From contig NZ_AKJF01000057.1 in assembly GCF_000282475.1 (NCBI RefSeq), forward strand, positions 23,915 through 87,914: 64,000 nucleotides of DNA, read 5' to 3'. Under the pieces are notes generated by a model that was given only the letters and a program-made list of their open reading frames with translations, had not been told where the DNA came from and ran no database searches. This document shows, in pieces, positions 32,295 to 44,015 of this stretch. How positions within the stretch are numbered: position 1 is the stretch's first letter; the number at the start of each line of letters is the position of its first letter. The translations under genes and the position numbers were made by a program. The DNA comes from Pseudomonas sp. GM78. Lineage in GTDB: Bacteria; Pseudomonadota; Gammaproteobacteria; Pseudomonadales; Pseudomonadaceae.

Positions 32295-32370
32295 GGCCCC
32301 ATCGCGAGCAGGCTCGCTCCCACAGGGAAATGCAATCACCTGTGGGAGCGAGCCTGCTCGCGATGGCGGC
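32295..32370. repeat. REPIN (GAGCCTGCTCGCGA type)
   Basis: Inverted units CATCGCGAGCAGGCTCGCTC and GAGCGAGCCTGCTCGCGATG around a short loop, between the convergent hydrolase and dsbG genes. The same unit forms the insertion inside fpvD. Confidence 0.9.
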
Positions 32371-41347: not shown

Positions 41348-42247
41348 TTATCCAAGGTTCCCTTTGAGGCTGGGGACGACGCCGCGCGCGATGGCGGCCA
41401 GGGCGAAGGCGATACCGGCCACCAGGATGATCGCGGCACCGGACGGGATCGGCAGGTCAAAGACGATCGGCGCTAGAATCCCGCACAGCGTGCTCACTGT
41501 GGCGATCAGCACCGAGCACCAGAAGAAGCCCTTCAGTGACTGGCTGAGCAGGCGCGCCGCCGCGGCCGGTATCACCAACAGCGCACCGACCAGGATGGCG
41601 CCGATGACTTTCACGGCGGCGACGGTGATCAGCGTTACCAGGATCACGAACAGGTAATCCAGGGACTTCACCGCCACCCCGCGCACCGCCGCCAGTTGCG
41701 GGTTGAAGCTGGCGAGCATGATGCGGTTGTACAGCGGCAAGGCCAGGGCCATGACCAGCGCGCCGACGATGGCCAGCACCAACAGGTCATTGCCGTTGAC
41801 CGTCAGCACCGAGCCGAACAGCACGTTCTCGAGGATGTGCACGTTGATCTTGCCCGCCAGGATCAGCAGCAGGCTGGCGCCCAGCGCCAACGACACCGAC
41901 AGGAACACACCGATCAAGGTATCCGGCGCCAGGCCCGTGCGGTTGCGCAGGTAATTAAGCAAAATGCCGAACAGCAGGCAGTAACCGAACAGGCTGCCGT
42001 AGGGCCCGGTGTAGGGTTCGCCCAGCAGGATGCCGATAGCCACGCCGGTCAGTGCCGCGTGTCCCACCGCTTCGGAGAAAAATGCGAAGCGCTTGACCAC
42101 CACCAGGGTGCCCAGACCGCCCAGCACCGGACCAATCAACAGGCCGGCGAGCAAGGCGTTGACCACAAATCCATAGGCCAGCGCCTCAGGCAGATAACCC
42201 GACGAGGCCCAGCCCTGGACCATCAAACGAAAGGCTTCGTAACTCAT
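41348..42247 (-). CDS. fpvE: Iron ABC transporter permease FpvE
   Basis: A 299-residue ZnuB/ABC-3 type permease with about eight membrane helices (ALAYGFVVNALLAGLLIG, TLVVVKRFAFFSEAVGHAAL, etc.). The HAALTGVAIG segment is the coupling region of the family. ATG 42247 overlaps the fpvD stop (TGATG); the frame extends 51 codons upstream into fpvD and is not coding there. Imports iron released from ferripyoverdine from the periplasm to the cytoplasm with FpvD. Confidence 0.92.
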   Translation of the reverse strand: MSYEAFRLMVQGWASSGYLPEALAYGFVVNALLAGLLIGPVLGGLGTLVVVKRFAFFSEAVGHAALTGVAIGILLGEPYTGPYGSLFGYCLLFGILLNYLRNRTGLAPDTLIGVFLSVSLALGASLLLILAGKINVHILENVLFGSVLTVNGNDLLVLAIVGALVMALALPLYNRIMLASFNPQLAAVRGVAVKSLDYLFVILVTLITVAAVKVIGAILVGALLVIPAAAARLLSQSLKGFFWCSVLIATVSTLCGILAPIVFDLPIPSGAAIILVAGIAFALAAIARGVVPSLKGNLG

Positions 42248-43092
42248 CAGGCAGCGCTCCGTGGATGGGTCGAGAACAAGCTCAGCAGGCGATCGGGGGT
42301 CAGCGCCTGTTGTGGCGTGGCATCGAACAGCACGCGGCGGTTGAGCCCGGTGACGTGATCGGCCAGGCGTCCAACCGCTTCCAGATCGTGCTCGATCCAC
42401 AGCACGGTGATGCCCGCCGCGCGCCAGTCGCCCAACAAGCGTTCGAACACCCGGATGCCGGCTTCATCGAGGGCCGACATCGGTTCGTCGAGCACCAGCA
42501 GTTGTGGTGCCGGAATCAGGCCTTGCGCCAACAACACCCGCTGGCGCTCGCCGCCCGACAGCGCACCCATGCGCCGCTTGCGTTTGTCCTGCATGCCGAC
42601 CCGTTCCAGCGCCTCGCCAATCGCCTTCGCGTAGTGTTTGCTCAAACCGAGGAACGCTGGACGCCGCTGGCACATCGCGGCCATGAAATCGTCGACGGTC
42701 ATTGGCAGACCGCGATCGAATTCCAGTGCCTGGGGCACGTAGCCGATCGTTCCCGGTTCGCCCGGCCATTGCAGGCTCAAGCGGCCCTGGTGCGGCATCT
42801 GCCCGAGCAGGGTCTTGATCAACGAACTTTTGCCGCCACCGTTAGGGCCGACCAGTGCATGCACGCTGCCGGGCCGAACTTGAAAAGTGACGTTGTCGAG
42901 GATGGTAGTGCGACCGAGGGTCAGGCTGACGTCGGCAAAATCCAGGGTCGGCCCCGAAACCTGTGGGAGCGAGCCTGCTCGCGATTGCGGTGTGTCATTC
43001 AATGATGATGGCGCCTGACTGGACGCCTTCGCGAGCAGGCTCGCTCCCACAGGGGATTGTGCATCGCCCAGGATAGTTTCTTTAGATGTCAT
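42247..43092 (-). CDS. fpvD: Iron ABC transporter ATPase FpvD, with in-frame REPIN insertion
   Basis: A 281-residue ABC ATPase: Walker A GPNGGGKSS, Q-loop region YVPQAL, signature LSGGERQRV, Walker B LLVLDEPMSALDE, H-loop WIEHD. Energises FpvE. ATG 43092 overlaps the fpvC stop (ATGA). Unusual: codons about 13-44 are encoded by a 93-bp REPIN (42961-43053) and give a low-complexity stretch (SPVGASLLAK...RAGSLPQ) before the conserved domain begins at LDFADVSLTLGR. The insert is a multiple of three, so the frame and translational coupling are retained. The extension lies ahead of the ATPase core and is likely tolerated. Confidence 0.9.
   Translation of the reverse strand: MTSKETILGDAQSPVGASLLAKASSQAPSSLNDTPQSRAGSLPQVSGPTLDFADVSLTLGRTTILDNVTFQVRPGSVHALVGPNGGGKSSLIKTLLGQMPHQGRLSLQWPGEPGTIGYVPQALEFDRGLPMTVDDFMAAMCQRRPAFLGLSKHYAKAIGEALERVGMQDKRKRRMGALSGGERQRVLLAQGLIPAPQLLVLDEPMSALDEAGIRVFERLLGDWRAAGITVLWIEHDLEAVGRLADHVTGLNRRVLFDATPQQALTPDRLLSLFSTHPRSAA
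42961..43053. repeat. REPIN inside fpvD coding sequence
   Basis: Inverted units CTGTGGGAGCGAGCCTGCTC and GAGCAGGCTCGCTCCCACAG, the same type as 32295-32370, spanning 93 bp within the fpvD N-terminal region. Confidence 0.93.
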
Positions 43093-44015
43093 GCCCCGGA
43101 CTCCTGAATCGCCCGCACCACAGTGTTGAGGTTGCCGGTCATTTCCTTTTCGTACTTGTCGGCGGTGTATTCGCCGTAGGAGATATGCGACAGCGGGTAC
43201 AGCTTGACCCCGGATTCGCGCTGGATGGTGTCGACGTAGGTGGAAGGGAAATCCATCTCCGAGAAGATCACTTTCACGTCCAGCTCACGCAGTTGGTCGA
43301 TGGTCTTTTTCAGCTGGCTGGGGCTGGGTTCGATACCGTGGGCCGGCTCGACCACCGCCGTCACTTCCAGGCCGAATTCGCGCAGCAGGTAATCGTAGGC
43401 GGCGTGAACCGTGGCCACGCGCAGTTCGGCGTTCGGTGCCGCGGTCAGTTTGGCCAGGGCGTCGGCGCGCATCTTGCGCAGGCGCTTGCCGTAGGCACGG
43501 GCGTTCTCGGTGTAGGTCTTGGCATTGGCCGGGTCGAGTTTTCCCAGTTCGCGGGCGATATTGTTGACCTGGGCGATCGAGGCGCTGATCGACAGGAAGG
43601 TGTGCGGGTTGACCACTTTGCCTGCGCCACGCGCGGCGACGCCGGTGGCGGCCAGCAGCGGCACGTTTTCGTTGGCCTCGATCACCGACACGTTCGGCGT
43701 TTCACTGGCGGCGATCATGCGGTCGGCGAAGTCGTCATGGCCGACGCCGTTGAGCACGATCACGTCGAGCCCGCTGATGCGCTTGATGTCTTCGGCCCGT
43801 GGCTCGTAGGCGTGGGGGTTGAAGCCGGCGGGAATCAGCGGCACCACCTCGGCCTTGTCGCCGACAATGTTGGCCACGTAGCTGTAATACGGGTGCAGGG
43901 TGATGCCGATGCGCAGGCGCTTGGCCTCATCGGCGCTGGCCAGGGGTGTCAGCAGGCAGGCCAGCAGGCCGACCAGTGACAGGCGCAGGAAAGAACGTAG
44001 CGATGAAATAGGCAT
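43089..44015 (-). CDS. fpvC: Periplasmic metal-binding protein FpvC
   Basis: A 308-residue cluster A-I solute-binding protein with signal peptide (about 1-28, LTPLASA-DE). Metal-ligand type residues: HPYYSYVANIVG, GFNPHAYEP, VNPHTFLS, TVHAAYDYLL, and Asp/Glu near the C-terminus (FSEMDFPS). In the Fpv system FpvC binds the ferrous iron released from pyoverdine and hands it to FpvDE. 35 bp separate it from fpvK; it overlaps fpvD by 4 bp. Confidence 0.9.
   Translation of the reverse strand: MPISSLRSFLRLSLVGLLACLLTPLASADEAKRLRIGITLHPYYSYVANIVGDKAEVVPLIPAGFNPHAYEPRAEDIKRISGLDVIVLNGVGHDDFADRMIAASETPNVSVIEANENVPLLAATGVAARGAGKVVNPHTFLSISASIAQVNNIARELGKLDPANAKTYTENARAYGKRLRKMRADALAKLTAAPNAELRVATVHAAYDYLLREFGLEVTAVVEPAHGIEPSPSQLKKTIDQLRELDVKVIFSEMDFPSTYVDTIQRESGVKLYPLSHISYGEYTADKYEKEMTGNLNTVVRAIQESGA

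Follow-up and report, generated by a model that had tools for sequence, protein, structure and literature searches.

The window, the 64,000-nt stretch of Pseudomonas sp. GM78 DNA analysed here (contig NZ_AKJF01000057.1, positions 23,915 to 87,914), contains a putative fpv locus. Its genes encode, in order, a PepSY_TM protein, some additional small proteins, a binding protein of the ZnuA type, an ABC ATPase, a permease of the ABC-3 family and another protein of the ZnuA type. Residues 65-205 of the ATPase, FpvD, match Pfam ABC_tran (5.2e-26). The gene order agrees with that of fpvGHJK beside fpvCDEF in the excerpted text of PMC6954188, and the fpv names were assigned from this order and that source; NCBIfam models matched four of the genes only below their curated cut-offs. 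Close to its 5' end, fpvD contains an in-frame REPIN, whose parts and neighbours are listed in Table 1.

Table 1 Features of the fpvC-fpvD-fpvE region and of the REPIN inside fpvD, in window coordinates.
Feature	Position	Strand	Evidence
fpvE, permease gene downstream of fpvD	41348..42250	-	Pfam ABC-3 2.4e-51
fpvD, ABC transporter ATPase with REPIN-encoded tail	42247..43092	-	ORF, 281 aa
REPIN, 93 nt, fpvD codons 14-44	42961..43053	-	inverted repeats, fold; 31 codons missing from empty alleles
Second REP arm, inverted; minus strand encodes SRAGSLPQ	42963..42984	+	exact REP match
REPIN loop, 44 nt	42985..43028	-	44 nt in 56/56 extractable carrier loops
First REP arm in gene direction, encodes VGASLLA	43029..43050	-	exact REP match GTGGGAGCGAGCCTGCTCGCGA
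fpvD codons 1-13, 5' of REPIN (MTSKETILGDAQS)	43054..43092	-	first six codons dN/dS 0.10
ATGA overlap, fpvC stop / fpvD start	43089..43092	-	ATG in 68/68 carriers
AGGAG ribosome-binding site, 8 nt 5' of fpvD start	43101..43105	-	AGGAG in 67/68 carriers
fpvC, periplasmic binding protein	43089..44015	-	Pfam ZnuA 7.2e-59

A repeat search over positions 42800-43200 returned a single inverted pair (42960-42989 and 43024-43053; 30 nt, 93% complementary, 34 nt apart), and here two GTGGGAGCGAGCCTGCTCGCGA units face each other across the 44-nt loop. The DNA folds into a perfect 25-bp stem (z -10.5, 0 of 200 shuffles as good), and the fold of the corresponding RNA (161 nt) was likewise matched by none of 200 shuffles (z -6.3). 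The initial annotation had placed a complete, in-frame 93-nt REPIN at 42961-43053, and both the coordinates and the hairpin were borne out. The encoded peptide, PVGASLLAKASSQAPSSLNDTPQSRAGSLPQ, is flanked in FpvD by MTSKETILGDAQS and VSGPTLDFADVSLTLGR. A check for the same REPIN class at other loci had also been suggested, and the unit GTGGGAGCGAGCNTGCTCGCGA occurs 258 times in the genome (137 + 121 copies), against none for the reversed control. The element therefore has the inverted REP pair forming one hairpin and the high copy number in its own genome that mark a REPIN, and its 88-nt span and 44-nt loop, the latter shared by 24 of 35 sampled loops, give the usual pair spacing. Its position inside fpvD departs from the extragenic position that is typical of the family, which is not part of REPIN structure. 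Three genes of the genome match Y1_Tnp. Two of them, the RAYT-like L201 and L202 (G000:C142 and C117), are flanked by other REP classes (GAGCCAGCC and GAGCTGGCTT); with the patterns tried, the class found in fpvD lay beside none of the three, and no REP was seen at the third. The GAGCCAGCC and GAGCTGGCTT variants themselves recur as fpvD arms in L036 and L135. A further REP pair of the fpvD class, in the opposite arrangement, lies elsewhere in the window at 32302-32363 (G000:C57:56216-56277).

We searched 398 sampled genomes of the genus, of which 101 gave a match at E up to 1e-142. The match spanned the insert with an open frame in 61 of the 398 genomes, and in G034 it spanned the insert with a stop. 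Among the carriers with a species name are P. umsongensis, P. azerbaijanoccidentalis, P. koreensis and P. rustica. The REPIN in fpvD is no oddity of one genome: a private insertion is rejected by these 61 genomes, and the element occurs in dozens of species, with a mixture of filled and empty alleles. The gap of about 31 residues that the initial annotation had proposed to look for in orthologues was found, since L035 has 43 residues before GPT against 12 in empty alleles. The comparison set held 68 carrier sequences, all different and in frame, and 105 further sequences. Left out of it were L047, L057, L021 and L075 (fpvC stop misplaced or no usable upstream sequence), L050 and L188 (N in the hairpin), the out-of-frame L012, L052 and L184, six duplicates and, as unresolved, L107, L109, L110 and L112. 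The frame is broken inside the REPIN in L012 (G034), and most of the REPIN is lost in L052 (P. crudilactis UCMA 17988) and L184 (G067), where no good start is left for the core; these frame losses may be real or assembly errors. The score of 68 in-frame to three out-of-frame alleles reflects the choice of carriers for being in frame. L139 (G275), which is not in the carrier set, carries a tandem duplicate of the fpvC end, fpvD start and REPIN around the fpvD start at 1501, with both copies open. The N runs of L050 and L188 sit at the hairpin, where assemblers perhaps fail.

The fpvD start had been described as overlapping the fpvC stop, and the shared ATGA is indeed there, its ATG kept in all 68 carriers. 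AGGAG precedes it in 67 of them and GGAG in the remaining one, in every case at a spacing of 8 nt, and the six codons that open fpvD, 5' of the REPIN, evolve at a dN/dS of 0.10 across the 68 sequences. Inside the REPIN, in-frame candidate starts over the 68 carriers comprise 82 GTG, 70 TTG and 7 ATG codons, one with a Shine-Dalgarno (SD)-like match; the REP's own GTG is in frame in 61 carriers. The stretch examined 3' of the REPIN held 16 TTG, 4 GTG and 1 ATG over the same set, and later codons with an SD-like match number five in all. A start and ribosome site are thus conserved 5' of the REP and none is consistent 3' of it, as an intragenic coding REP should have. Judged by sequence, GTG and TTG starts inside the REPIN are possible, almost all of them without an SD match. 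A start 3' of the insert, which the initial annotation had raised against its own reading, is not supported.

The REPIN had also been said to have become part of the reading frame, and the loop agrees, with no in-frame stop in 68 carriers against 38 and 63 of the 68 in the other two frames. Of 22 other 88-nt REPINs sampled from the genome, 16 (forward) and 17 (reverse) have this frame open, which puts the share expected to contain a stop without constraint at about a quarter. The tail 5' of the REPIN falls into seven length classes, and the tree requires 32 or more length changes, each of whole codons, among alleles that had been chosen as in frame. These patterns suggest that fpvD is translated through the REPIN from the upstream ATG. 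The residues themselves behave differently from the frame. The loop had a pN/pS of 0.77 in frame, with 0.79 for one of the other frames and 0.96 for the second, and its dN/dS was 0.70 against 0.056 for the core, both being pairwise values that ignore kinship. Purifying selection on the added residues was considered and is unsupported, because the in-frame loop value is close to that of a wrong frame. A widely shared extension under purifying selection had been named as an outcome that would overturn the initial annotation; the wide sharing is there, the selection on residues is not. Selection would appear to keep the frame and the absence of stops, and hardly the residues. The alignment of the loop over the 68 carriers (loops of 44 nt could be extracted from 56 of them) has no gap. 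In an AlphaFold2 model built from 34 sequences, residues 1-41 have pLDDT under 50 while 174 of the 281 residues reach 90, and the added tail of FpvD is probably disordered. Most likely, the REPIN-encoded tail is tolerated and disordered, and its DNA still belongs to the REP pool.

We built a tree from fpvC ends and fpvD cores with 164 rows (171 before distant loci were removed; L015 and L065 are not in it). All 68 in-frame carriers group in a single 95-row clade (SH-aLRT 98), together with 27 non-carriers. Of the latter, 23 rows (20 distinct) are clean empties with a tail of 12 residues (10 once), like the outgroup tails, and four (L009, L168, L169 and L172) resemble remnants or intermediates. 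The carrier label needs 17 changes on the tree, 14 of them forced by starred branches. The alleles of L043 and L126 resemble those of L123 and L125, yet both loci are placed among empty alleles in a starred clade. Codon 4 of fpvD reads K or R in 64 of the 68 carriers and Q in all 23 clade empties. We infer from the placement of carriers on the tree that filled and empty alleles have been exchanged between species. REP counts had a median of 530 in 60 carrier genomes, with the GGGCCTG variant omitted, against 254 in 19 clean-empty genomes, one of which (G129) lies just outside the 95-row clade (p 0.003, kinship ignored).

The arms and the loop of the REPIN differ in their history. Synonymous divergence is low in the arms (pS 0.14 and 0.16; the core has 0.43, and its 15-codon windows range over 0.29-0.60), and the arms are mosaics of REP variants; a variant 15 nt longer appears on the tree at least 12 times on the right and at least four times on the left. 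Four exact REP classes were counted in 60 carrier genomes, leaving out arms that match none of the four (20/60 left, 28/60 right). The class of the arm was the commonest of the four in its own genome in 27 of 40 cases on the left and 25 of 32 on the right. Mean own-class share was 0.564 for left arms against 0.353 when shuffled, and 0.641 against 0.279 for right arms, with 0 of 5000 shuffles as high on either side, the shuffles ignoring kinship; tree-independent pairs almost always pointed in the same direction, and no class had a median p under 0.05. The loop of the window, by contrast, has a mean identity of 0.75 to the fpvD loops of other species (n=55, minimum 0.45) and of 0.50 to 35 other REPIN loops of its own genome (maximum 0.68), which suggests that the fpvD REPIN loop is mostly orthologous. 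Since the loop is orthologous in this sense and the arms match the pool, the arms appear to have been replaced while the loop was kept, as between L117 and L131, which share the same tail, have loops one nt apart and differ in a short versus a long right arm. The loops of L045, L159 and L160 differ, so replacement of the whole REPIN may also occur.

The explanation that we consider probable is a single REPIN insertion that gave FpvD a translated, tolerated tail, spread by recombination and had its arms rewritten from the REP pool. REPs frequently land just 3' of gene ends, and a REPIN would have entered some 40 nt beyond the fpvC stop, most likely in a single event, in an ancestor shared by part of the P. 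fluorescens complex. Because fpvD starts within the fpvC stop codon, the insert would have fallen inside fpvD, and it would have survived because its 93 nt correspond to 31 codons and because, in this REPIN class, the VGASLLA frame usually stays open. Translation from the overlapping ATG would then place a disordered tail, presumably without function, ahead of the ABC domain, and the filled allele would have moved among species by recombination. The arms would still be rewritten from the REP pool of each genome, perhaps by gene conversion, so that the N-terminus of FpvD would drift with the repeat population.

Conservation of the hairpin for expression is unlikely, though with an appreciable chance, and can be true together with most of this explanation. 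The hairpin would protect the fpvC mRNA or slow entry into fpvD, giving more binding protein than ATPase, and the tail would be a by-product. Such a role fits the perfect 25-bp stem and its RNA fold, the few synonymous changes in the arms and the second locus described below, where the REP pair again lies directly 3' of the upstream gene's stop. In E. coli a REP between malE and malF goes with more binding protein being made than the next product. That REP too stands behind a binding-protein gene in a transport operon, but in an untranslated spacer, whereas the fpvD REPIN is inside the next gene. The conservation of the arms can be explained without function because they follow the genome pool, and a hairpin kept for expression sits poorly with the 23 clean empty rows within the carrier clade, the partial losses in L168, L169 and L172, and the repeated origin of the long arm, which alters the stem. 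Translating ribosomes would, moreover, be expected to melt it.

That local REPINs inserted independently, several times, at a single hot spot, which we regard as quite unlikely, would account for the 17 changes of the carrier label (at least 14 forced), for arms that match the local pool and for the higher REP counts in carriers than in clean empties when kinship is ignored. It would not account for a loop shared across species beyond its likeness to the genome's other REPINs, for the same join in minimal alleles, or for the codon 4 difference between carriers and clade empties. That the tail is a domesticated, functional segment of FpvD is very improbable, for although it is kept in many species and its loop is free of gaps, loop pN/pS is no lower than in one wrong frame, the model gives the tail low confidence and probable disorder, and several lineages have lost it in part or whole. 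Misannotation, with a start after or inside the REPIN and the REPIN as leader, is barely credible given the conserved ATG, AGGAG and upstream codons, the stop-free frame and the few candidate starts 3' of the REPIN, even though GTG and TTG codons stand in frame within it, several REPs of this genome precede genes with their own later ATG (e.g. L204, L211, L213, L218) and the excerpted text of PMC3733652 suspects it for the majority of N-terminal REPs in P. putida and in two further species.

We scanned 62 other REP clusters of this genome, a part of the 258 copies. A coding-score scan found none of the 62 with strong coding on both sides, and is blind to short N-terminal tails, fpvD itself scoring only 0.6 upstream. 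A structural scan of the same clusters gave six candidates (L210, L211, L215, L225, L231 and L258), of which L225 and L258 seem by eye to have ordinary later starts and only L210 has an ATGA junction. The REP pair at window 32302-32363, as L235, was a candidate in neither scan. At L210 a VWA-TPR gene ends in a stop that overlaps the start ATG of its downstream neighbour. A REP pair in frame follows this ATG and precedes a hydrophobic, signal-like stretch. We inspected 34 related loci by eye and resolved 25, the other nine standing outside the counts: both arms are encoded in 19 (including two of this genome; L295 and L320 are alike), half in two and none in four, namely the distant L296-L298 and L319. 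Loci of this second gene are L293 (G000:C21:33219-34616, minus strand), L295, L299, L301-L304, L306, L309 and L310.

The distance from the start codon that overlaps a stop to the beginning of the REP is 41 nt in fpvD and 25 nt at L210, and we propose for both loci that a REP landing close behind an upstream 3' end came to lie inside the next gene because of the ATGA junction. A wider reading, plausible but tentative, is that at ATGA junctions, where there is no spacer, REPs landing past one gene become the N-terminus of the next and are then rewritten from the pool. The layout is seen at two loci, fpvD and the gene after the VWA-TPR gene, and the pool match comes from fpvD alone; two loci are no proof of a rule. 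If the reading is true, an abundant non-coding repeat keeps editing several proteins at once across a whole species complex. Tight operon junctions are suggested as sites where repeats turn into protein. Alleles in dozens of species, whether filled, empty, partly lost, broken, duplicated or arm-swapped, form a natural series for testing whether intragenic repeats are translated and whether the genome pool homogenises REP arms. For annotators, the fpvD start should not be shifted downstream.

Intragenic REPs are already known; what is new here is the depth, the frame and start tests and the pool match. According to the excerpted text of PMC3733652, several species were already known in 2013 to have REPs within genes, with GTAG and CGTC REPs found as singles and dimers inside ORFs, including N-terminal cases in P. 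putida. For P. entomophila and S. wittichii, the same excerpts place most of the REPs found between convergent genes within 20 bp of the 3' ends, and those between same-direction genes likewise close to the upstream 3' end. The fpvD REPIN resembles these singles and dimers in ORFs and their N-terminal cases; that source suspected most of the N-terminal ones to lack a coding role, whereas in fpvD start, frame and stops were tested across 68 sequences, and beyond the cases in those excerpts fpvD has empty alleles and REP-pool matching. The classic example of palindromic repeats in frame is the Rickettsia RPEs, which, as excerpted from the same source, likewise sit in probably functional proteins, but they are another, CGTC-tagged repeat, and the likeness to a Pseudomonas REPIN at an operon junction is one of analogy only. 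REPIN-RAYT populations of Pseudomonas share the inverted REP hairpin, high copy number and usual spacing, but the excerpted parts of PMC3116915 and PMC8049555 treat REPINs as extragenic, whereas the fpvD copy is within a reading frame. Among the matches listed, a literature search found no title on REPs in fpvD, and the matches listed for a search on fpvD and REPINs did not mention fpvD.

A search with the REPIN peptide in six genomes (150 candidates scored in each) ranked fpvD first in G000, G033, G158, G204 and G074, and a REPIN elsewhere first in G109. One of the 30 loci returned, L287 (G033:C4:300382-300474), is a further candidate, a REPIN with coding score on both sides in one open frame, which may be antisense.
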